Source: Terriglobia bacterium (GTDB taxonomy: Bacteria > Acidobacteriota > UBA6911). From it: DNA of 64,000 bases. The DNA is taken from assembly GCA_020072565.1 (NCBI GenBank), contig JAIQGI010000048.1, positions 1 through 64,000 on the forward strand, read 5' to 3'. The position numbers and the translations under genes were made by a program. The notes under the pieces are model-generated. The model saw only the letters and a program-made list of their open reading frames with translations. It was not told the origin of the DNA and searched no databases. Positions 3,950-51,760 of this stretch are shown piece after piece. The stretch's first letter is position 1. Each line of letters opens with the position of its first letter.

Positions 3950-8248
<4,299 letters not shown>

Positions 8249-8259
8249 CCGGTTGCCGA

Positions 8260-8300
8260 CATCCGACCCCCGAATGAACGGAGAGGTCGGAGGTCGGATG
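8260..8300. repeat. Short inverted repeat in the rpoB-rpoC gap
   Basis: CATCCGACC at 8260-8268 pairs with GGTCGGATG at 8292-8300, with a second GGTCGG copy inside the loop (8285-8290). There is no T-run, so it is not a classical terminator. It may be an mRNA stem protecting or segmenting the rpoBC transcript. Confidence 0.4.
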
Positions 8301-8349
8301 CGGAACGAGTTATTCGAATTTGAACCTCTAAGATTAGGGGGAAGCACCA

Positions 8350-12549
<4,200 letters not shown>

Positions 12550-33149: not shown

Positions 33150-35309
33150 TCAGGCTTTTTTTAACGCCTCTTTGATTCTTTCGGGAGTCATCGGGAATTG
33201 ATACAGGCGGGCGCCGCTCGCGTCGAAGATCGCATTGGCGACGGCCCCACCCAGGGGCACGATGGCAGGTTCGCCCCCACCCTTGGGTGCCAACTCGTCA
33301 TTCTTCACCAGAATCGCTTCAATTGCGGGCACTCCCGAAAAGTGGGGAATTTCATAGGTGTCAAAATTGGTGGTAAAGATCTGGCCCCCCTTGAAGCTGA
33401 TGTCTTCCGACAGGGTGTATCCCAATCCCATGGTGATGCATCCTTCCATCTGCATCTTGGCACCCTCGGGATTGACGGCAAAGCCCATATCCTGGGCACA
33501 TACGACGCGCTTCACCTTTACTTTCCCGCTGGCTTTGTCGACTGCGACCTCGACAATTTGCGCAACATAAGTCTCGGCGTCGATGCCGCAGGCGATGCCA
33601 TAACCGCGGCCGCTGGGAGCAGCTGCCTTTTTCCATGGGAATTGGTCCGCCGCCGCCTGGAGTACCGTCCGCATTCTCAGGTCGGAGGTGTTGTTCAGGC
33701 GGAATTCCAGCGGATCCATCTTGGCGCTTGCTGCCATGATGTCGATCTGCGACTCGCGCGCAAAGACGTTCACCGGCGCACCCGGGGCTCGCCAGGCGCC
33801 GGTGCCGAAAGGATGAACGCTGCCGCCGCCTCCCATGCCCTGGCCATAGACCCTGATAATACTGTTGGGAACATCGTAGAACTGCTCGGAGCTTCTCGCT
33901 CCCGCGGCATAGACATTGTAGTCCCACAGACAGATCTTGCCTGCAGCGGTGATGCCTGATTTGATCTTGACGACCCCAGCCGGCCTGTAAGTATCGTAGA
34001 AGAACTCCTCCGCCCGGCTGAACATCACCTGCACGGGTTTTCCGGTGATTTTCGCCAGTCTTGCCGCCTCAACCGCCTGCGGGGCGGGATTCTTGCCGCC
34101 GAAACCGCCGCCGACGAATGGGGTGATGACCCGGACATTCTCGGGTGTGAAACCGAGAGCCTGAACTATTTGTCGCTGGTTCGGGAAGGGACCCTGGGTG
34201 GAAATCCAGACCGTCGCCTTTCCGCCTTCGATCTTTGCCAGAGCAGTATGAGTTTCGATAGGCGCATGGGCGCCGTAGGCCGTTACATACTTACCCTCGA
34301 ATACCGTTGCAGCGGCTTTCTCCCCTGCGGTGAGATCGCCTCTGGCATCGTTCTCCTGAGCTCGAGGGCTCGATTTGAGGATGTGGTCGAATATCGTCAG
34401 ATTGTCGACCGCCGGCACGGGGATATTAAATTCGGCCTTGATGCTTGCGAGAGCCTTTTCTGCGGCTTCGGGATCCTGATGGAGCACCGCGATCAGACCT
34501 TCCTGGTTGACCACGATGATCCCGGGCATTTTCTCTGCCGCCGAGGTATTGACGCTCTTCAGAGTGGCGCCGTGTGCCGGCGGGCGCAGGATCCGTGCAT
34601 ACAGCATACCCGGCTCGCGCATGTCTCCCGCATACTTTGCCTTGCCCGTGACTTTCGCCACGGCATCGGTTCGTTTTGTCGCTTTGCCCATGAGGGTCGG
34701 GTGGGCGGGCGGGGCCTGGAACTTGGTTGCCGACAATGGGGCGGCCTGCGTCTTGCGCATGATTTTCTGGCCCTTGGCCAGCTGTGCGAACGTCACCCGG
34801 GTTTTCTTGTCGGCGGTAACAAAGACGGCTCCGGCCTCCACGCTGAGTTTCTCTTTCGGAGTCTTGAGCTGTTCCGCCGCCAGGTCGAGCAGGATGTCCC
34901 GGGCTTCGGCTGCTGCGGCCCTCACCCACGGACCGAAGAAGCGAGTCGACATCGATCCATAGGTCCCGCTGTCGGGCGGGCACAGATCCGTATCACCCAT
35001 GACCATGTCGATCGATTCGAGCGCCACACCGAGCTCGTCGGCCGCTTCCTGGGCGAGTGATGTGACGACTCCTTGTCCCATCTCGATCTTTCCCGAATAA
35101 ACCGTCACCCTGCCATTCTCGCCGATCTTCAGATAGGCGTTCAGATCGGCCGGATAGCTTGGCCCCCGCTGCCCCAACAAGACCGCTTCGTCGAGCGTGA
35201 ACCATACGATGATGCCTCCGCCCACGAGCTTGAAGAAGTCGCGCCTGTCCAGGGAGAGTCCGGATGCCGAATCTGGCGTTTCGAAAACCTTGGATTTTTC
35301 ATCTCCCAT
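33150..35309 (-). CDS. Molybdenum hydroxylase large subunit (isoquinoline 1-oxidoreductase/aldehyde oxidase type)
   Basis: 719 residues. The N-terminus has a Tat-type signal (SLDRRDFFKLVGGGIIVWF), so the folded cofactor-loaded enzyme is probably exported. Molybdopterin-binding motifs include GKIEMGQGVVTSLAQ, GGGFGGKN and GAWRAPG; GEPAIVPLGGAVANAI near the C-terminus carries the catalytic-type Glu. It would hydroxylate N-heterocycles or aldehydes with electrons passed to the FeS subunit encoded upstream. The ATG at 35309 lies nine bases after the small-subunit stop. No FAD subunit, cytochrome c or maturation factor is adjacent. Confidence 0.9.
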   Translation of the reverse strand: MGDEKSKVFETPDSASGLSLDRRDFFKLVGGGIIVWFTLDEAVLLGQRGPSYPADLNAYLKIGENGRVTVYSGKIEMGQGVVTSLAQEAADELGVALESIDMVMGDTDLCPPDSGTYGSMSTRFFGPWVRAAAAEARDILLDLAAEQLKTPKEKLSVEAGAVFVTADKKTRVTFAQLAKGQKIMRKTQAAPLSATKFQAPPAHPTLMGKATKRTDAVAKVTGKAKYAGDMREPGMLYARILRPPAHGATLKSVNTSAAEKMPGIIVVNQEGLIAVLHQDPEAAEKALASIKAEFNIPVPAVDNLTIFDHILKSSPRAQENDARGDLTAGEKAAATVFEGKYVTAYGAHAPIETHTALAKIEGGKATVWISTQGPFPNQRQIVQALGFTPENVRVITPFVGGGFGGKNPAPQAVEAARLAKITGKPVQVMFSRAEEFFYDTYRPAGVVKIKSGITAAGKICLWDYNVYAAGARSSEQFYDVPNSIIRVYGQGMGGGGSVHPFGTGAWRAPGAPVNVFARESQIDIMAASAKMDPLEFRLNNTSDLRMRTVLQAAADQFPWKKAAAPSGRGYGIACGIDAETYVAQIVEVAVDKASGKVKVKRVVCAQDMGFAVNPEGAKMQMEGCITMGLGYTLSEDISFKGGQIFTTNFDTYEIPHFSGVPAIEAILVKNDELAPKGGGEPAIVPLGGAVANAIFDASGARLYQFPMTPERIKEALKKA

Positions 35310-35317
35310 GATATGCC

Positions 35318-35779
35318 TCACTTTTTGGCAACACTTTCGATTGCTTCGACGATGCGTTTATGAGTGCCGCAACGGCACAGATTCTGTTCCATGCCGTCAA
35401 TGATCTGGGCTCGGGTGAGCTTCGGATTCTTCAACATCAATCCGTAGGCGGTCATGATCATGCCGGGCGTGCAGAAACCGCATTGCAGAGCATCGTGCTC
35501 GGCGAATGCTTTCTGGAGTGGATGCAGGTTGCCGTTGGTCTCCAATCCTTCGATGGTAACGACCTCCTTGCCCCGCACCTCTTTCACAGGAAGCTGGCAA
35601 GAGCGCATCGCTTCCTTGTTGACTACTACCGTGCATGCACCGCACAAGCTCGCGCCGCAGCCGAACTTCGTTCCCGTGAGATTCAGGTCCGTACGCAGCA
35701 CCCATAACAGCATTCGGTCGCCTTCGACCTCCAGCTTGGTGGGCTTGCCGTTGAGTCGAAAATCAATGATTTCTTTCAT
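35318..35779 (-). CDS. Molybdenum hydroxylase [2Fe-2S] small subunit
   Basis: 153 residues, full length for the CoxS/IorA family. The N-terminal plant-type ferredoxin cluster is in GCGASLCGACTVVV plus the later RSCQLP cysteine. The C-terminal helical domain holds the second cluster in QCGFCTPGM and NLCRCGTH. It passes electrons from the molybdenum site of the large subunit. ATG 35779 is chosen because MKEIIDFRLNG is the normal start; the frame extends upstream without homology. It has no signal, so it probably travels with the Tat-bearing large subunit. Confidence 0.93.
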   Translation of the reverse strand: MKEIIDFRLNGKPTKLEVEGDRMLLWVLRTDLNLTGTKFGCGASLCGACTVVVNKEAMRSCQLPVKEVRGKEVVTIEGLETNGNLHPLQKAFAEHDALQCGFCTPGMIMTAYGLMLKNPKLTRAQIIDGMEQNLCRCGTHKRIVEAIESVAKK

Positions 35780-36013
35780 AGGCGTCTCTTCTTTGATAGA
35801 TGGTTTGGCTGGCAAGCGATTGTAACAGATTTTGGAATTTGGAATGCGGATTTTGAACTGAAAAATCTTTCACTCCTTCACGGCGCCGATCGTCGATGCA
35901 AACCCGCAAACCGGGTTCCAGGATCCAAGATCCGGAGCGCCTTCGTTTTACTTCCGGGGAATCAGGCATCATGGTAGAATTCTTATTCTCTTGCACGAGG
36001 TGGATTCTGCTCT

Positions 36014-38022: not shown

Positions 38023-38052
38023 GCACCTTGGGATTCTGTGAATCATTCCAAC

Positions 38053-39210
38053 ATGGAAGAGCGTTCCATTCTGGTTGTGGTCGGAGAAACGTCCGCGGAT
38101 CGCTACGGGGCGAATCTGGTCCGGAAGCTGCGGATGCTGCGCGGTGAGCGGCCCTTGAGGGTTTTCGGTACCGGCGGGGACGAGATGCAGGCGGCCGGAG
38201 TCGAGATTCTGTGTCACATCCGCAACCTTGCCAGCATCGGAGTGCGCGAGGCGGTCCACCACCTGCGCGATTATTATCGGACCTTCCGGCTGCTCACAGA
38301 GACCTGCCGTCAAAGGCGCCCTTCCGCAGCCGTACTGATGGATTTTCCCGACTTCAACCTCCGGCTTGCGAAAAGACTGAAACGCCTGGGCATAAAAGTT
38401 ATCTATTACATCAGCCCGCAGCTGTGGGCGTGGCGGAGTGGCCGGGTCAGGATCGTTCGGCAGTATGTGGACCGCATGCTGGTCATCCTGCCGTTTGAAG
38501 AAGAGTATTATCGGGTGCGGGGAGTAAACGTGGAATTCGTCGGGCATCCTATTCTGGAAGACTTTGACGCCACCAGCGATCGGGAAAGCTTTCTCTCCGA
38601 GCTTGGACTGAATCCCTTTCTCAGGACGATCGCCCTGCTGCCCGGAAGCCGGCGCGTGGAGGTCGAGCATATGCTCCCCACGTTCCTGCAAGCATCACGG
38701 CGGATTTTGCGCCGTCTGCCGGCGCAGTTCCTGGTCTCCGTGGCGCCGGATATCGATCCAGGCCAGGTGGCCAGGATCGCCTCCAGAATATTGGGGGAAG
38801 ATGGCGACCGGATGCAATTCCGTATGGTTTCCGCTTCAGCGCGAACCATCCTGGCCAACTCGGATTTCGGATTCATCAAGTGCGGCACGAGCACCCTGGA
38901 GGCGGCGCTGGTGGGGACTCCGTTCCTGATTGCGTACCGGGTTTCTCCCTTGAACTGGAGTGTGGGAAATATATTGATTCGCAGTCGCTACAAGGGGCTG
39001 GTAAACTTGATTGCCAAGGAAGAGATTGTCCCGGAGTACCTGCAGGGGAAAGCAACCCCCGAGGCACTTTCCCGTGCAGCCCTGGAATACCTGGAACAGC
39101 CTGAAAAGGCCGCCACAATGAGGGCGCGTCTGGCTGCGGTCCGCAGTATGCTGGGCTCACGTTGCGCTTCCGACAGGGCCGCTGCTCTGGTGGCGGGGTA
39201 CCTGGAGTGA
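38053..39210 (+). CDS. lpxB: Lipid-A-disaccharide synthase
   Basis: 385 residues. Recognised by GETSADRYGANLVRKL near the start, GVRE, the DFPDFNLRLAK segment, YYISPQLWAWR and FVGHPILEDF, then LLPGSRRVEVEHMLPTFL and GTSTLEAALVGTPFLIAYR. LpxB condenses UDP-diacyl-GlcN with lipid X on the inner membrane face. ATG 38053 (MEERSILVVVGE) fits the family start; a GTG at 38038 is also in frame. lpxD is 5 kb downstream rather than adjacent. Confidence 0.93.
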   Translation: MEERSILVVVGETSADRYGANLVRKLRMLRGERPLRVFGTGGDEMQAAGVEILCHIRNLASIGVREAVHHLRDYYRTFRLLTETCRQRRPSAAVLMDFPDFNLRLAKRLKRLGIKVIYYISPQLWAWRSGRVRIVRQYVDRMLVILPFEEEYYRVRGVNVEFVGHPILEDFDATSDRESFLSELGLNPFLRTIALLPGSRRVEVEHMLPTFLQASRRILRRLPAQFLVSVAPDIDPGQVARIASRILGEDGDRMQFRMVSASARTILANSDFGFIKCGTSTLEAALVGTPFLIAYRVSPLNWSVGNILIRSRYKGLVNLIAKEEIVPEYLQGKATPEALSRAALEYLEQPEKAATMRARLAAVRSMLGSRCASDRAAALVAGYLE

Positions 39211-39215
39211 AAAGA

Positions 39216-41228
39216 ATGCAAATGCGAATGGTAGGCAAACGCTTATTGCTTGTTTCAACACTGGTGTTCGGTCTGGGCACCGGCCTCTATCCCCAGGCCA
39301 GGAGACCGGCTTCCGCGGTTCCCCAAATCAGTGTCGGGAACTACACGATTCAACTGACTCTCGATCCCGACCCCCACGAAATGAAAGCGGTTGCAACCGT
39401 CAAGTTCAACGTGGTCCAGTCCACCGACGTGGTCGTGTTTCAGCTCAGCGAAAATCTGTCGGTGCTCAAGGTTACGGACGAACGCGGGGGAAACCTGGAT
39501 TTCACCCAGGACGATCCTGGTCCCGGCAGCATCGCGATTCACTTTCCCAAGGCGCTCAACGACGGAGAGAGTACCGTAATCAAACTGGAATACAACGGCG
39601 GGTTTGACCTGGACCGCTACAGCCGCAACTTCACGCGCGATCAGGGCAGCGCCTATATCGGCATCGAGGGCACCTATCTTCTCTATCCGGCCAGGTGGTT
39701 TCCGATCAACAAACTGTTCGGCGATCGCCCCACGGTGAGCGTCGAGGTGACCGTGCCCCTCGGTATGACCGCTGTCGGCCCGGGCGCTCAGATGCCGATT
39801 GTGACGCATGACGTCACAGAGACATTCGGCTGGTCGTCACAGCTGCCGGTGATGGCGGCCTCGGTCGTGGCGGGCCGATACTTCGAGCGCAAGGCTCAGT
39901 TCGACAAGTTGACGATCGACACTTTCGCCCGCGAGGATCACATCGAGGCCATCCGCAAGACTGCCGAAGCATTGGTGAAGCCGCTGGAGTACTATCAGCA
40001 GCTCTGGGGCGACTCGGCGACGGGGAAGAGCTACCGGCTGGTCGAAGTGGACGACAGGCTTGCCCTGGCTCCGGGTACCTTGGGTACGATTTTCGTCACT
40101 CACAAGGAATTGTCCGGTTCCACACCGCCTATGCGTGAGCTTGCCCGGCGCGCTGCCTATCAATGGTGGATGGATACGGTCGGAGTCCGCAGTGCCAATG
40201 ACCTCTGGCTGGCGGACGGCATGGCTTATTACTCGGCCGCCCTTTTCCTCGGCCAGAGCAACGGCCCTGAAGCCTTGAGAAACGAGATCGACAATCTTGC
40301 CGTCCTGGGCCTGAAGTACGAGTCCAAGAGCGCGATTCGTGACGCTGTCGGCCTCGGGTACGGAACCGAATTTTATCAATCGATCGTCGCGGGGAAAGGG
40401 GCATACGTGCTGAACATGCTCCAGGGTATGCTGGGTCCGGAGAAGTTTGCCGGTCTCCTCCAGCAGTATGCCAAACAGTTTGCCGCCACCGGCGGCTCGA
40501 CCGCCAGTTTTCAAAAGCTGGCGGAACAGGTTTATGGCAAGGAGCTGGCGTGGTTCTTTGCCGAATGGATCGATACGATCGGAGTGCCCAACCTGCAGGT
40601 GGATTACAAGATATATAAGACCCGGGATGGTTTCCGGGTTTCCGGGAGCGTGACACAGGATCGAGACCTTTTCCGCATGCCGCTGGAGATTGAGGCCCAG
40701 GGCGAGGGAAAGACCGAACGCGCCACCATCGAGCTCAACGGCAAGTCGACTCCTTTCGACGTTAATACCTTTTCGTGGCCCCAAAAGGTGATTCTCGATC
40801 CGGACAGCAAGCTCCTGCGCGACTCCGAGGAGCTCCAGTTCAAAGTGCAGCTCACACTCGGGAGCGAACTCAAGGAAAAGAACGACTACGTCGGCGCCAT
40901 CCGCGCTTACGAACAGGCCCTCAAACTATTCCCGAGAAAATCGATTGCGCATTTCCGGCTGGCGGAAGTGTTTTTCGAACAGATGAACCTCCAGGCGTCG
41001 GCGAACACGTTCCGCGACGCACTGAATGGGGACAAGGACCCGAAGTGGATCGAGGTCTGGTGCTACGTCTATATCGGGAAGATCTACGATATTCTCGGCC
41101 AACGTCAGCGCGCACTGGCGGAGTATAACAAAGCCCTCAACACCAAGGACAATACCAACGGCGCCCAGGATGAAGCCAAAAAATGGCTGGCTGTTCCGTA
41201 CACTCGAGACACGACGGTAGGAAAATAA
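39216..41228 (+). CDS. M1-peptidase-like protein lacking the zinc motif, with TPR region
   Basis: 670 residues with a signal peptide (MVGKRLLLVSTLVFGLGTGLYPQA). An M1-type beta-sandwich domain (about 30-240) is followed by the peptidase-fold region. Where active M1 enzymes have HExxHQWW it reads ARRAAYQWW at about residues 310-318, and the later WLxEGFA is WLADGMA, so both histidines and both glutamates are lost. The C-terminal 120 residues look like tetratricopeptide repeats (RKSIAHFRLAEVFFEQMNL). Probably an exported non-catalytic binding protein. It begins five bases after lpxB. Confidence 0.8.
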   Translation: MQMRMVGKRLLLVSTLVFGLGTGLYPQARRPASAVPQISVGNYTIQLTLDPDPHEMKAVATVKFNVVQSTDVVVFQLSENLSVLKVTDERGGNLDFTQDDPGPGSIAIHFPKALNDGESTVIKLEYNGGFDLDRYSRNFTRDQGSAYIGIEGTYLLYPARWFPINKLFGDRPTVSVEVTVPLGMTAVGPGAQMPIVTHDVTETFGWSSQLPVMAASVVAGRYFERKAQFDKLTIDTFAREDHIEAIRKTAEALVKPLEYYQQLWGDSATGKSYRLVEVDDRLALAPGTLGTIFVTHKELSGSTPPMRELARRAAYQWWMDTVGVRSANDLWLADGMAYYSAALFLGQSNGPEALRNEIDNLAVLGLKYESKSAIRDAVGLGYGTEFYQSIVAGKGAYVLNMLQGMLGPEKFAGLLQQYAKQFAATGGSTASFQKLAEQVYGKELAWFFAEWIDTIGVPNLQVDYKIYKTRDGFRVSGSVTQDRDLFRMPLEIEAQGEGKTERATIELNGKSTPFDVNTFSWPQKVILDPDSKLLRDSEELQFKVQLTLGSELKEKNDYVGAIRAYEQALKLFPRKSIAHFRLAEVFFEQMNLQASANTFRDALNGDKDPKWIEVWCYVYIGKIYDILGQRQRALAEYNKALNTKDNTNGAQDEAKKWLAVPYTRDTTVGK

Positions 41229-41287: not shown

Positions 41288-41383
41288 TGGCCGCCGACAA
41301 AATCAAGACGGTCGGCGTCCGTCTGCGTTTTTCCGCGTCCAGAGATCCATTTTTTCATTCACCCATGAATAATCCCGGATAAG
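41288..41383 (+). repeat. Inverted-end dispersed repeat, copy C (left end missing)
   Basis: About 96 bp: GGTCGGCGTCCGTCTGCG, TTTTTCCGCGTCCAGAGATC and the right end CATGAATAATCCCGG. It ends only three bases before the next start codon at 41387, so it must supply or displace the 5' untranslated region of that gene. The left terminal repeat is not present. Confidence 0.8.
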
Positions 41384-41386
41384 CGC

Positions 41387-41923
41387 ATGTCTTCCTGGGA
41401 GACAATTGCACAGAAAATACGCGTGCCACTGTGCAGAATCGGGGTGGTGGTTTTTCTGTTCATGCACCCGTCGCGGCAGTCTCTCGTGGTCGGAGGCGCG
41501 GTCGCCGCTCTCGGGGCGCTTCTCCGGCTTTGGGCTGCCGGGCATATCGACAAGGGCAAGTCTCTGGCCACCGGCGGGCCATATGCCATGACGCGCAATC
41601 CGCTCTATCTCGGATCCCTTATCATGGCACTCGGAGTGCTTCTTGCCGGGCAGGTATATTGGCTCCTGCTGCCGTTTGGCATCCTCTATATCGCGCTTTA
41701 CTATCCAGTCATGAAGAAAGAGGAGCAGGATCTGTTGCAGGGCTACGGGGAAGGATTTCTTGAGTATGCCGGGCGGGTTCCCAGGTTCTTCCCGAACTTC
41801 AAGGCGGCTCCCATACGTTCGTCCTCTTTCCTCTGGTCGCGCGTCAAACGGAATCGGGAGCATCGCCACCTGCTGGTCCTCGCACTCGCTGAGATATTTC
41901 TCATCGTGAGGAGCTTTCTGTAA
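41387..41923 (+). CDS. Integral-membrane methyltransferase (ICMT/PEMT-like)
   Basis: 178 residues with four or five hydrophobic segments. The family signature GPYAMTRNPLYLGSLIMALG is followed by the second conserved block (KKEEQDLLQGYGEGFLEYAGRVPRFFP), the S-adenosylmethionine-binding region of isoprenylcysteine/phospholipid methyltransferases. In bacteria such proteins methylate lipids or other small membrane substrates; the substrate here is unknown. It lies upstream of a lipid-enzyme-like radical SAM gene. Confidence 0.78.
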   Translation: MSSWETIAQKIRVPLCRIGVVVFLFMHPSRQSLVVGGAVAALGALLRLWAAGHIDKGKSLATGGPYAMTRNPLYLGSLIMALGVLLAGQVYWLLLPFGILYIALYYPVMKKEEQDLLQGYGEGFLEYAGRVPRFFPNFKAAPIRSSSFLWSRVKRNREHRHLLVLALAEIFLIVRSFL

Positions 41924-42156
41924 GGCCGGCAAGAATTTCAATAGACGAGATGTGGAAAAGTTGTTAAGGTGTTCTGCTGAGTTCCGTGCGGCTTTGAGGT
42001 GTCCGGGAACCGCGGCATTCGGCGACGGACTCCGGACTTCCGGGAAATAGCGAGCATATAAAGCTAATCGGGCCCGTCGATTCGGCGCATGTAACCGGAT
42101 TCCGGCTACTGAACACAGGCGGCCGGTCACAACCGGCACAGATCACAGCAGGGTGT

Positions 42157-44118
42157 ATGTACACAGATCATATTGTCCGCGAGGAGCGCGAGCGCAGCCC
42201 GCTATGGACATGGGCCGGCTCGTCCCTGGTAAGAGGGGCGTCGGACCTTCTCTGGCGCGCCTTCCAGACAGTCAACCGGCACATTCCCGAAGGCCGGCTT
42301 CCGCATCCCCGATGGGCCCCTGACCGGATTCCCAAAAACCGCCAGCGCACCTCACCTCCCCTTGGATTTCCTAGGGTCACCGACTCGCTTTGCCCGCACT
42401 GCATCCCGGAGGCGCGCGCCAAAATCGTGAAGGGCGAGCTTGACCCAGCTGCAGTCATCAACGGCCATCTCGGGGAAATCAGAGCCGAGCTTTTCGAGGA
42501 GAATGGCCGCATCCTCATGCGCAAGGTGTGCGAGAAGCACGGTCCCTTCGAAGATGTGCTTTCGACCAATCCGGCTTTTACACGCCGCATCGAAAACCTG
42601 TTTTTCGGCAGGGATTTCGAAATTGCCGACGACGCGGGCATCCATTGCCACGGGCCTTCCTCGATCAAGTACGGCCGGGGTACCGTGCTTACGGTCGACC
42701 TGACGAACCGCTGCAACATGATGTGCGGCCCCTGCTTCATGGACGCCAACCAGGTCGGGTATGTCCACGAACCGAGCTTCGAGATCGTCAAGGCGATCCT
42801 GGATCGTGCGGTTTCGTTCAAGCCGCGGCGCCAGGTGATCATCCTGTTCTCGGGCGGCGAGCCGACACTTTCTCCGTTTTTTCTCGAATCGGTCGCCTAT
42901 GCCAAAAAGCTCGGCTTCTACAGGATTCTGGCGGCTACCAACGGGATCCGGTTTGCCCAGAGCGAGGAATTTACGCGCCAGGCTCGCGAGGCCGGGCTGC
43001 ATGGAACGTATCTGCAGTTCGATGGCGTCACGAACGAGAAAAACCAGCATCGTGGTGTAGCCAACCTGCTCGACGTCAAGCTGCAGGCAATAGAGAACAC
43101 CGCCCGGGTCGGAATGAAAACCACACTCGTGGCCACGATCGTGAACGGGATTAATAACGACGCGATCGGATCCATCGTGAATTTTGCCGTCAGGAACATC
43201 GACAAGGTGCAGACCGTCGTGTTACAGCCCATCTCTTTCTCGGGCAGGGACGAGGAAGTTGACGACCAGACCCGCTACGCACAGCGCTATCCACTGTCTC
43301 AGATGGTCGAGGACCTGAAAACCCAAATGCACGGGGATTGGGAACCGATGAGAGACTGGTTTCCGCTGTCCACCTACAGTGCGATGACGAACGTGATGGA
43401 CATTCTCCAGGGCCCGGACGCGCCGTGGGGTTGGAGCGCATGCAATTGCCATCCCGATTGTGGTGTGACCAGTCTTCTGGTGGTCAACCGCCGTACGCAT
43501 GAATGGACACCGCTGTCCAAATTCGTGGACTTCGAGCGGTTTACCCGGGACGTGATCAGCATTGCCGACGGCGCGCGGGGAAAAACGCTGACTTCAGCCC
43601 AGCTGGCGCTGGCCATCTTGCGCAACTACAAGGCGAAGGAAGCTCCGGCGGGATTCCCCCTGTCCCGTATCATCAGTCTGCTCAAGCCCAGCTCGGAAAG
43701 ACCCGACAGCGACAGGAATGACCGGATGAAGATACACTCCGGCCAGGATGACTGGCGTGTGCTATGCGTTGAAGGAATGCTGTTCCAGGACCTGTGGACC
43801 TACGATTTCCGGCGCACGGAAATGTGCGTGATTCCTTACGGAACCGAGGAAGGGGAAGTATCGTTTTGCGCTTACAACACGGGCGTCGGATGGCGCCAGA
43901 TTATCGAAAACAGGCACAAAACGGCAACACTGACCGAGTGGCACAATACGAAAGGCCGGCACAGGATCTATGCCAAGGGTAGGGCCGTGGAGCTGGAATC
44001 CACAAGTCATACCCTGCTGTTACCTGAGGCAGAGGCCGGCTCGAAATGCCCCGCATGCAGCCCGGAGCTTCCTGGAAAAGAGAAGGAAATTGTGCCGGCC
44101 AGCAAGTCGGCCACATAA
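42157..44118 (+). CDS. Radical SAM protein, tetraether-synthase (MJ0619/Tes)-like architecture
   Basis: 653 residues. The radical SAM cluster motif is C186-x3-C190-x2-C193 (DLTNRCNMMCGPCFMDAN), followed by the SAM-binding SGGEPTLSP. An N-terminal rubredoxin-like segment holds C79-P-H-C82 and, after an acidic stretch, VCEKHGPFEDV, the pattern seen in the MJ0619 family. Further clustered cysteines occur in CNCHPDC (429-435) and KCPACS at the C-terminus, suggesting auxiliary metal sites. Members of this family join lipid tails to make membrane-spanning lipids, or methylate pterins; the assignment here is by pattern only. Neighbours are a membrane methyltransferase and lpxD. Confidence 0.75.
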   Translation: MYTDHIVREERERSPLWTWAGSSLVRGASDLLWRAFQTVNRHIPEGRLPHPRWAPDRIPKNRQRTSPPLGFPRVTDSLCPHCIPEARAKIVKGELDPAAVINGHLGEIRAELFEENGRILMRKVCEKHGPFEDVLSTNPAFTRRIENLFFGRDFEIADDAGIHCHGPSSIKYGRGTVLTVDLTNRCNMMCGPCFMDANQVGYVHEPSFEIVKAILDRAVSFKPRRQVIILFSGGEPTLSPFFLESVAYAKKLGFYRILAATNGIRFAQSEEFTRQAREAGLHGTYLQFDGVTNEKNQHRGVANLLDVKLQAIENTARVGMKTTLVATIVNGINNDAIGSIVNFAVRNIDKVQTVVLQPISFSGRDEEVDDQTRYAQRYPLSQMVEDLKTQMHGDWEPMRDWFPLSTYSAMTNVMDILQGPDAPWGWSACNCHPDCGVTSLLVVNRRTHEWTPLSKFVDFERFTRDVISIADGARGKTLTSAQLALAILRNYKAKEAPAGFPLSRIISLLKPSSERPDSDRNDRMKIHSGQDDWRVLCVEGMLFQDLWTYDFRRTEMCVIPYGTEEGEVSFCAYNTGVGWRQIIENRHKTATLTEWHNTKGRHRIYAKGRAVELESTSHTLLLPEAEAGSKCPACSPELPGKEKEIVPASKSAT

Positions 44119-44373: not shown

Positions 44374-45420
44374 ATGATCTATACCGTATCCGAAATCGCT
44401 GCTTTGTTGGGCCTCGAGTTCCGTGGCGACGGCAGCCGCCGGCTTAGCAGGGTCTCCAGCTGGGAGAGTGCTGACGACACCGCCCTGGTATTTCTCGAAC
44501 GGGAACGGAAAGCCGACCCGATCGCCGCCGGACTTCGTGCCGGCTGCGTGCTGGCGCCCCCCGATTTCGTGCCTGTCGCTGGCAATGCAATTCTCTCCGG
44601 CAATCCCAAGCTGGACTTTGCACGGGCCGCCGCCTTGCTCACCGCCCCGGAGCCCGCCTCCGGCCGTCGACACCCGAGCGCTGCTATCTCTCCTGAAGCC
44701 GTAGTCGCCGGCGATGTCGACCTCGGGCCATTCGTTGTGATCGGCGCCCGCGCCCGGATATTCGGAGGATGCATCCTGCATGCGGGCGTGGTGATCGGGG
44801 ATGACTGCGTATTGGGTGAGCAATGCACCCTTCACCCGAACGTGGTGTTGTATCCGGGATCCATTCTGGGTGACCGGGTTGTGCTCCATGCCGGTGTTGT
44901 CGTAGGCGGCGACGGGTTCGGATATGTTTTCGACGGCCGCACCCAGATCAAGTTTCCACAGGTCGGTGGGATTATCATCGAAGACGACGTCGAGATAGGT
45001 TCCAACACCACACTCGACAGAGGATCGCTGGGTGTGACCCGCATCGCCGCCGGTGCGAAGATCGACAACCTGGTGCAGATCGCACACAACGTTCAGATCG
45101 GACGGGGAGTGGTCATAGCGGCCCAGACCGGCATTTCCGGCAGCACCGTGATCGAGGATTACGCCGTGATCGGCGGGCAGGTCGGGTTTGGGGATCACGC
45201 CCACGTCCAGAAGGGCGTAGTGATCGGCTCGAAGGCAGGCGTACTCCCCGGCAAGATCGTCCGCGCCGGAGAAGTGTATTGGGGAGTTCCCGTGCGCCCG
45301 CTGCGCGAATACAAACGCCTCAACGCGCTTTTCGGCAGGCTGCCCGAACTGAAAGCCGACATCGATTCCCTGAAGGAGGCCGTCGCCAAACTCGAGAAAG
45401 CGCTCCTGGAGAATGAATAG
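44374..45420 (+). CDS. lpxD: UDP-3-O-acylglucosamine N-acyltransferase
   Basis: 348 residues. The N-terminal uridine-binding domain is followed by a left-handed beta-helix of hexapeptide repeats (about 100-310). GGDGFGY and the catalytic His238 in IAHNVQIG are conserved, and a C-terminal coiled-coil helix (ELKADIDSLKEAVAKLEKALL) makes the trimer. LpxD adds the N-linked acyl chain in lipid A synthesis. The last 94 bases of the gene are repeated twice more downstream in tandem (45522 and 45717). Confidence 0.96.
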   Translation: MIYTVSEIAALLGLEFRGDGSRRLSRVSSWESADDTALVFLERERKADPIAAGLRAGCVLAPPDFVPVAGNAILSGNPKLDFARAAALLTAPEPASGRRHPSAAISPEAVVAGDVDLGPFVVIGARARIFGGCILHAGVVIGDDCVLGEQCTLHPNVVLYPGSILGDRVVLHAGVVVGGDGFGYVFDGRTQIKFPQVGGIIIEDDVEIGSNTTLDRGSLGVTRIAAGAKIDNLVQIAHNVQIGRGVVIAAQTGISGSTVIEDYAVIGGQVGFGDHAHVQKGVVIGSKAGVLPGKIVRAGEVYWGVPVRPLREYKRLNALFGRLPELKADIDSLKEAVAKLEKALLENE

Positions 45421-47930: not shown

Positions 47931-47969
47931 CAGCGGCCCCGCTTGCTGCGGAATGAGAGCGTTGAACCT

Positions 47970-48986
47970 ATGGTGCTGGCTCGATTCAATTGCCATCCGG
48001 GAAAGCTGGCCGCGGCGGTGGGCCGGTTCCGGAAAAAGAAAGTCCTGGTGCTCGGCGATGTCATGTTGGACCGGTTTGTCTGGGGCTCGGTCAGCCGCAT
48101 CAGCCCGGAAGCGCCGGTGCCGGTTGTCGAGATCCGGGAGGAAACGGCCTGCCTGGGTGGCGCCGCAAATGTAGCCGCCAACATCAGCAGCCTGGGCGGC
48201 GAACCCTTTCCGCTCACGATCGTGGGGAACGATGCGGAGGGCGAACAACTGCGCGCCGGGTTTCGTCAGCTCGGCGCGTCCGTGAGCGGAGTTCTGATCG
48301 ATAAGGACCGGGCAACCAGCGTCAAAACGCGCATCATCGCGCATCATCAGCAGGTGTGCCGCACCGACCGCGAGGACAGGAGCCCGCTCGCTCCGGAACT
48401 GCAGCGCCGAATCGTGGACTGGTTCCGGACCCACCTGGATGCTATGGATGCGGTGGTGGTCTCCGACTACGCCAAAGGATTCATCACGCTTTCGCTCCTG
48501 AAAAAGATCCTGCCCCTGGCCAAATCCGCCCAGAAAATCGTCTGCGTCGATCCCAAGTTGAGGAATCTTGCGGCCTATCGGCCTGCCACCGTGATTACCC
48601 CCAACCTTGCCGAAGCAGAGCGCGCCGCAGGAATAAACATAAGCGACGAGAAAACCCTGGTGCGGTCCGGCAAAAAAATCCTGCGGCAGACCGGGATCGA
48701 TCATCTGCTGGTAACACGAGGCGAGCACGGCATGGCTCTCTTCGAAGGGGATTCGAATTCGAAGGTGACACAAATCCCAACGCTTGCGCGTGAGGTGTTC
48801 GACGTCACCGGCGCCGGCGATACCGTCATTTCCACCCTTTGTCTCGGCCTGGTCAGCGGTCTGTCAATCCTGGAGGCCGCGATCCTGTCGAACATAGCGG
48901 CAGGCATTGTGGTCGGCAAGCTGGGCACGGCCTCGGTAACCCCCGAAGAACTGCTCTCCGGGATCCGTCAGATTTCTGAGCTCTGA
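47970..48986 (+). CDS. hldA: D-glycero-beta-D-manno-heptose-7-phosphate kinase (PfkB family)
   Basis: 338 residues. It matches the kinase half of HldE/RfaE: VLVLGDVMLDRFVWGSVSRISPEAPVPVV, CLGGAANVAANI, VVSDYAKGF, TPNLAEAE and the catalytic DVTGAGDT near residue 280. The adenylyltransferase half is missing, so this is the stand-alone HldA/RfaE1 type and needs a separate HldC. It supplies heptose for the LPS core, consistent with the family 9 glycosyltransferase 2 kb away. ATG 47970 is preferred; a TTG at 47943 is in frame. Confidence 0.9.
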   Translation: MVLARFNCHPGKLAAAVGRFRKKKVLVLGDVMLDRFVWGSVSRISPEAPVPVVEIREETACLGGAANVAANISSLGGEPFPLTIVGNDAEGEQLRAGFRQLGASVSGVLIDKDRATSVKTRIIAHHQQVCRTDREDRSPLAPELQRRIVDWFRTHLDAMDAVVVSDYAKGFITLSLLKKILPLAKSAQKIVCVDPKLRNLAAYRPATVITPNLAEAERAAGINISDEKTLVRSGKKILRQTGIDHLLVTRGEHGMALFEGDSNSKVTQIPTLAREVFDVTGAGDTVISTLCLGLVSGLSILEAAILSNIAAGIVVGKLGTASVTPEELLSGIRQISEL

Positions 48987-50650: not shown

Positions 50651-51760
50651 TCACTCATGACCCATGACTCCTCGCTTGAGAAACCGATCGCACGCATCCA
50701 TGACTAATTCCACGGGTATGTCATCGATGCACCTTGGTGTGCCGAAGGCGGTACAGGTGTACCCGGGGCAGGGCATGCAGGGCAGCTCCAGCCCGACCGA
50801 TTCATACTCCGTTTCCCAGGGATGCCAGTCGCGATAGTCCGAGGAACCCCATACGACCACCAGAGGCCTGCCCAGCGCCGCGGCGGCATGGGTCGGCCCG
50901 CTGTCATTGCCGATGAACAGCCGACAACCCTCGATCAGGGAAAACAGCTCATCGAGTCCGAGGTCGGACCAGTAACGGTGCGCATAATGCGCGTTCCGGC
51001 CAATGTCGAGCAGAACTTGAGCTTCCCGGAGACCAGCGGTAAAAATCACAGGGAGCGCGTAGCGCTCATGCAGCCGGTCGGCCAGGCCGGCAAATTTTTC
51101 TTCCTTCCATTGCTTGGACGGCAGGGTCGCCGTCGGATGAATCACCAGATACCCGGAGGATCCGATCCCGGAGGAAACCAGGCGCTCCCTTATTCGGGCG
51201 CGCACACCATCGTCCAGAAACAGCTTCCCTCGTGGTCTTGCCGGTATGGGAAGATCCAGCCAACGCAGAAGCGTGAGCTGATCTTCCACGGTGTGAAGAT
51301 CAGAACGCTGCCACACGACCTGGGGGTTGGGGATCAGAGCGTTGTAGACCCAACCCTGGCGATATTTCTCCTGACCGATTCTGAGGCCGGCGCAGCTGGC
51401 AAGGGTAAAGAGCGACGATGTGGTGCCGCCGTGCAGATTGACCACTGCGGAGTACCGGCGCCTGCAGATTTCAAGGCAGGTACGGATGCGCGGCCATCCC
51501 TCTCCTTCCGGCACTTTCCGTGGCCTCAGGATCAGCGTTTCATGCACGGCCGGGTGCCTGGAAAACACGGCGGCGTACTGCGCCTCTACCAGCACATCGA
51601 TCTGCAGGTCGGGGCGCCACGCGTGGAGCGCTTCCAGCAGAGGCAGCGCGAGAATGGAGTCGCCCAAAGATCTCAGACGGATAATGAGGAGCCGCGGAAT
51701 GTGTTCCAGCTGCAGGCGCAGCGCGCGCATGCGTTCGGCGTGGGAAATCGAATTTGGCAA
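50651..51760 (-). CDS. Glycosyltransferase family 9 (ADP-heptose:LPS heptosyltransferase-like)
   Basis: 369 residues, GT-B fold. IPRLLIIRLRSLGDSILALPLLEAL at the N-terminus and LFIGNDSGPTHAAAALGRPLVVVWG in the C-terminal nucleotide-sugar-binding domain are diagnostic of WaaC/WaaF-type enzymes. It likely adds a heptose to the LPS core, consistent with a heptose kinase nearby. Start may be ATG 51760 or 51730 (MRALRLQLE). The last codons fall in a repeat-like ATGAGTCAT sequence. Confidence 0.88.
   Translation of the reverse strand: MPNSISHAERMRALRLQLEHIPRLLIIRLRSLGDSILALPLLEALHAWRPDLQIDVLVEAQYAAVFSRHPAVHETLILRPRKVPEGEGWPRIRTCLEICRRRYSAVVNLHGGTTSSLFTLASCAGLRIGQEKYRQGWVYNALIPNPQVVWQRSDLHTVEDQLTLLRWLDLPIPARPRGKLFLDDGVRARIRERLVSSGIGSSGYLVIHPTATLPSKQWKEEKFAGLADRLHERYALPVIFTAGLREAQVLLDIGRNAHYAHRYWSDLGLDELFSLIEGCRLFIGNDSGPTHAAAALGRPLVVVWGSSDYRDWHPWETEYESVGLELPCMPCPGYTCTAFGTPRCIDDIPVELVMDACDRFLKRGVMGHE

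Follow-up and report, generated by a model that had tools for sequence, protein, structure and literature searches.

The closest described system to the protein examined here is the radical SAM enzyme GDGT-MAS/Tes, represented by MJ0619 (7TOL, 7TOM; NF045702). The C-terminal cluster of GDGT-MAS, [4Fe-4S]C, is the site of a C–S intermediate, and a pterin activity of MJ0619 could not be reproduced by Lloyd et al. 2022 (PMC9433317). Bacterial Tes homologues were proposed for brGDGTs by Zeng et al., who reported Tes homologues in Acidobacteria using loose thresholds (PMC8941075). Furthermore, the membrane-spanning lipid synthase Mss was reported with the Tes architecture, and the glycerol ester reductase Ger has an architecture with two activation domains (PMC13274423).

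The window (the whole stretch of 64,000 nucleotides analysed) carries an open reading frame at positions 42157–44118 (+), and its coordinates, as listed in the first-pass annotation, were confirmed: it starts with ATG and encodes a Tes-like radical SAM protein of 653 amino acid residues. Because homologues with 62–73% identity were present in dozens of genomes, it is not a chance reading frame. Among the NCBIfam models, the best match was Tes (NF045702; 292 bits, residues 75–589), below the curated cut-off of 450 bits; no match to this model was found in the T. maritima control genome at E ≤ 1e-20. The closest solved structure by sequence was GDGT-MAS MJ0619 (PDB 7tol; phmmer, E 1.5e-60), with 28% identity over 508 columns (BLASTP). 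An AF2 model was built from 53 homologues (pTM 0.86, mean pLDDT 82) and compared with known structures by Foldseek; 7tom and 7tol were matched over the whole length (7tom: TMt 0.87, 548 columns, E 8e-34), whereas the next-best structures matched the SAM domain only (TMq 0.28). By its modelled fold, the window protein is thus a radical SAM protein of the Tes/GDGT-MAS type. The likeness to MJ0619/Tes that had been proposed from motifs was upheld for the family, the solved structure and the fold, but the score falls short of the family cut-off and the protein lies on a separate long branch. TrsS (NF045646) has related N-terminal and SAM domains, and this part was the best-matching stretch of that model; however, the score was 200 bits against a cut-off of 490, and the match does not reach the window protein's C-terminal domain. 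The window protein shares the Gln/Ser/Arg loop (Q357, S360, R364) with MJ0619 and differs from it by an added N-terminal helix, a C-terminal extension and a further cysteine, C429. The helix (residues 23–42; 42223–42282, +), predicted to be amphipathic (hydrophobic moment 0.59, shuffle p 0.004), precedes the Tes-matching region and is taken as a gain of the clade.

In the tree, the window protein and its relatives (Groups I and II) were separated from standard Tes by a long branch with support of 100. Group I, which contains the window protein, formed one clade (support 100), and Group II comprises the remainder of the larger clade and is not one branch; since long branches are present, the split from Tes is more secure than the deep placement. 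Group I was found in Pyrinomonadaceae, including P. methylaliphatogenes K22, and in the family of the window's organism. Group II proteins share about 50% identity with the window protein and are distributed more widely, in many Acidobacteriota and in Myxococcota (Sorangium, Minicystis), and a Group II lineage from Calditrichota, Gemmatimonadota, Latescibacterota, Desulfobacterales and KSB1 MAGs grouped with Group I. At E ≤ 1e-20, the window protein matched in 217 of 396 Acidobacteriota genomes, a count that takes in standard Tes and TrsS-like relatives; standard Tes was present in 38 of the 396 (10%), and the Tes-like clade in about half of those sampled. The genome of the window itself contains Group I and standard Tes, without Group II. 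A search for HGD-D proteins gave no useful separation of the groups. In several Acidobacteriota, further relatives (loci L214–L222) scored between Tes and TrsS; these share with Tes the N-terminal part and the SAM domain, and retain the C-terminal cluster ligands only in part. Given that acidobacterial Tes homologues were reported by Zeng et al. with loose thresholds (PMC8941075), the clade was probably seen earlier under the name ‘Tes homologues’.

To locate the metal sites, ligand positions from Lloyd et al. 2022 (PMC9433317) were mapped through an alignment of 123 sequences, after an offset of 20 residues in the PDB chain numbering had been corrected. Conservation was scored across 88 proteins of the clade (36 of Group I, 52 of Group II) and in 28 standard Tes of Acidobacteriota. 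The rubredoxin-like segment described in the first-pass annotation was recovered as CPHC...CEKHG, with C79, C82, C125 and H128 (42391–42540, +), corresponding to Tes C9, C12, C33 and H36, and it lies within a Pfam HMPTM zinc ribbon (Zn_ribbon_HMPTM, over cut-off) at residues 72–136. Its three cysteines were present in 36/36 Group I and 52/52 Group II proteins, and the histidine in 35/36 (with one gap) and 52/52. The radical SAM motif was likewise as described, CNMMCGPC with C186, C190 and C193 (42712–42735, +), with a Radical_SAM match over cut-off (PF04055, E 1e-16), and the CX3CX2C cysteines were invariant in all 88. Of the two extra cysteine clusters pointed out earlier, CNCHPDC (43441–43461, +; C429/C431/C435) was retained: C435 is a [4Fe-4S]C ligand (MJ C338) and C429 is clade-specific. 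The other ligands of this cluster are M541 (MJ M439), C557 (MJ C455) and C571 (MJ C470), at 43777–43869 (+), and all four were invariant in the 88 proteins; the labile Met439 is named in PMC9433317, and the three cysteines were assigned from conservation. The second cluster, KCPAC, is private to the tail of the window protein (CPAC, 44047–44058, +), and was rejected as a metal site for want of conservation across the family; of the 36 Group I proteins, just 3 carry a CxxC of any kind in the tail.

A different result was obtained for the N-terminal auxiliary cluster. Tes C73/C77/C80/H83 are replaced by G161/H165/S168/K171 in the window protein, with an HxHG motif where [4Fe-4S]N has been lost (42631–42669, +). 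These four ligands, with H83 taken as the histidine because it is the sole one conserved there in standard Tes, are gone in all proteins of the clade (kept in 0/88) and present in 28/28 standard Tes of Acidobacteriota. The presence of all four metal sites, which had been proposed as a check, was therefore not observed, and the window protein falls outside standard Tes, in a separate clade that lacks [4Fe-4S]N. In addition, the adenosine-binding arginine MJ R210 is replaced by Gly in Group I. The loss of the cluster, together with the change at R210, may have altered the chemistry. At the lost-cluster site (residues 159–171), D159, H163 and H165 are nearly invariant and could bind another metal.

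The gene neighbours named earlier (lpxB, a membrane methyltransferase and lpxD) were all recovered. lpxB (38038–39210, +; TIGR00215, 275 bits) is the only copy in the genome, and lpxD (44374–45420, +; TIGR01853, 303 bits) is a second copy. Between lpxB and the Tes-like gene lies an M1-peptidase-like/TPR protein gene (39162–41228, +), whose position is conserved in family f1, followed by a PEMT/ICMT-like methyltransferase gene (41387–41923, +; PF04191, E 2.6e-8). A longer reading frame at 41303–42139 (−) was rejected as the methyltransferase, having no family match. Further downstream are genes for the LPS core, a heptose-7-phosphate kinase (HldE domain I; 47943–48986, +; TIGR02198, over cut-off) and a GT9 heptosyltransferase (50651–51760, −; PF01075, E 2e-32). 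Elsewhere in the window, a molybdopterin hydroxylase large subunit is paired with a [2Fe-2S] subunit (33150–35815, −), and two long tandem reading frames encode 1432 and 1399 amino acid residues (3950–12549, +).

The lipid context suggested from these neighbours is real and, more specifically, a lipid A context, but it is conserved in Group I alone. When linkage was defined as lpxA, lpxD or lpxB within 10 kb, using ORF-based gene calls outside the window and only loci with enough flank, it was observed at 20 of 30 Group I loci versus none of 26 Group II loci. On the tree, this pattern took three changes, and none of 500 shuffles was equally low; it was read as a single gain in the ancestor of Group I and two later losses, with two sub-branches retaining the gene without the linkage. 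Gene order is lpxB–M1–PEMT–gene–lpxD in the family of the window, lpxB, lpxD, lpxA, gene in Pyrinomonas, and OmpH–LpxD–LpxC/FabZ–...–LpxB–gene in a basal Group I member, L117. The last is a doubtful, putative Planctomycetota MAG (L117:2355–10592), in which the gene is codirectional with, and 3′ of, a lipid A cluster of OmpH, LpxD, LpxC/FabZ, a MocA-type oxidoreductase and LpxB. In the window, G188 and Pyrinomonas, lpxB is single-copy and adjoins the Group I gene; at three loci (L095–L097) the linkage is weaker, with lpxD alone at 4.5–6.5 kb. Because the linkage persists despite rearranged gene orders, a functional tie is suggested, although the linkage does not name the substrate. No lipid context was shared among the neighbours of Group II or of the sister clade. 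In the literature searched, no report of the missing [4Fe-4S]N cluster or of the lpx linkage was found, and nothing relevant on diabolic acid with LPS or on dicarboxylic lipid A with membrane-spanning chains.

Two named genomes of iso-diabolic acid producers were compared. P. methylaliphatogenes K22, which produces iso-diabolic acid (PMC4644332), contained Group I and Group II without standard Tes (E ≤ 1e-20). Chloracidobacterium validum, another producer according to the literature, with a genome of two chromosomes (PMC12816986), contained Group II without standard Tes or Group I; two further relatives in it matched the Tes model solely in its N-terminal and SAM portion. As C. validum has Group II and Pyrinomonas has both groups (and so cannot separate I from II), this comparison of two genomes suggests Group II as the source of the bulk diacid, and a shared or special role is left to Group I.

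Taken together, the window protein is best read as a candidate radical SAM enzyme of the Tes fold that couples lipid tails into ester-bound diacids, with a probability of roughly 0.65. C–C coupling of acyl tails is its likely reaction, the one also proposed for Mss, and the protein may possibly be tied to lipid A. The coupling reading is favoured since only GDGT-MAS matches the whole model and since the ligands of the rubredoxin site, the SAM cluster and [4Fe-4S]C, M439 among them, have been retained. We infer the chemistry, the substrate and the functional meaning of the lipid A linkage from homology with GDGT-MAS and from gene context. By analogy, the SAM cluster would generate a 5′-deoxyadenosyl radical that abstracts a hydrogen from an acyl chain at its terminal carbon; this carbon would be bound to one of the sulfides of [4Fe-4S]C (C435, C557 and C571, with M541 as the labile ligand). 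A second SAM radical acting on a second chain would then allow the two chain ends to be joined, giving a dicarboxylic chain of the kind seen in iso-diabolic acid that is ester-bound and spans the membrane. Unlike Tes, the enzyme would operate without the N-terminal auxiliary cluster, and the added amphipathic helix probably docks it on the membrane.

The first-pass annotation had proposed another tetraether/brGDGT synthase acting on ether lipids, to which the Tes fold, the C-terminal cluster and the proposal of Zeng et al. (PMC8941075) would lend themselves. In the same genome, however, contig 20 encodes a standard Tes (62578–64044; 568 bits) with all four metal sites, sharing the superfamily and about 32–35% identity with the window protein, and instead of lpx genes its direct neighbour encodes a Ger-like protein of 1032 amino acid residues with two BcrAD/BadFG stretches and DUF2229. 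This Tes/Ger-like pair (contig 20, 59183–64203; L054:5184–10204), also observed in the congeneric genome G322, is likely the tetraether (brGDGT) gene pair and fits that role better. With such a natural candidate present, the window gene probably does something other than tetraether synthesis; the neighbourhood of Group I showed no Ger-like gene, and neither the NF045702 cut-off nor [4Fe-4S]N was matched, so that a tetraether role is unlikely. The contig 20 Tes beside Ger could by itself handle all tail coupling in this genome. It is also improbable, although the loss of a whole cluster, the clade-specific C429 and the changed R210 speak for it, that the scaffold was kept for a different radical chemistry on lipid tails, such as methylation, desaturation or cyclisation, as no [4Fe-4S]C ligand, the labile Met included, varies among the 88 proteins. 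On the family and fold scores, the reading as a peptide maturase or pterin methylase, named as the outcome that would count against a Tes assignment, was rejected and is given very little credence: the name of the HMPTM ribbon derives from an earlier annotation of such proteins, but matches to MoaA, PqqE and SkfB were limited to the SAM domain, Tes was the top family and structure match, and the pterin activity of MJ0619 was not reproduced (PMC9433317).

A narrower form of the coupling reading, held tentatively, is that Group I is specific to lipid A or its precursors and joins two lipid A tails, or a lipid A tail and a neighbouring lipid, giving LPS-bound diacids. The confinement of the lpx linkage to Group I, the position of the basal L117 gene after OmpH, LpxD, LpxC/FabZ and LpxB, and the adjoining single-copy lpxB argue for it. 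Moreover, in Acidobacteria iso-diabolic acid is set free when the post-extraction residue is hydrolysed (PMC13274423), which fits LPS-bound chains. On the other hand, genomic linkage does not equal substrate, the linkage was lost in two sub-branches that retained the gene, and C. validum, with Group II and without Group I, likewise produces iso-diabolic acid. That Group I would be a Tes-fold coupler of lipid A tails, yielding LPS with joined chains of the iso-diabolic type, is put forward a little more cautiously still; if true, it would account for some of the iso-diabolic acid that cannot be extracted from Acidobacteria.

Group II genes were observed in Sorangium, Minicystis and Byssovorax (L156, L165 and L148), which predicts tail-coupled diacids in Polyangiaceae; we know of no report of these. 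Recent surveys reportedly used a 30% identity filter; at 28% identity to the archaeal Tes, the window protein would lie below this limit. A large share of the fatty acids of Acidobacteria is iso-diabolic acid, the likely building block of brGDGTs, which underlie a widely used palaeothermometer; to our knowledge, the enzyme that forms it in aerobic Acidobacteria has not been established. The Tes-like clade is a compact candidate, being present in about half of the sampled Acidobacteriota and in two producers without standard Tes, and it makes the origin of acidobacterial membrane-spanning fatty acids testable. The absence of [4Fe-4S]N offers a natural experiment on the role of that cluster, and the link between Group I and lipid A genes hints at a location for such chains that had not been considered, the LPS.
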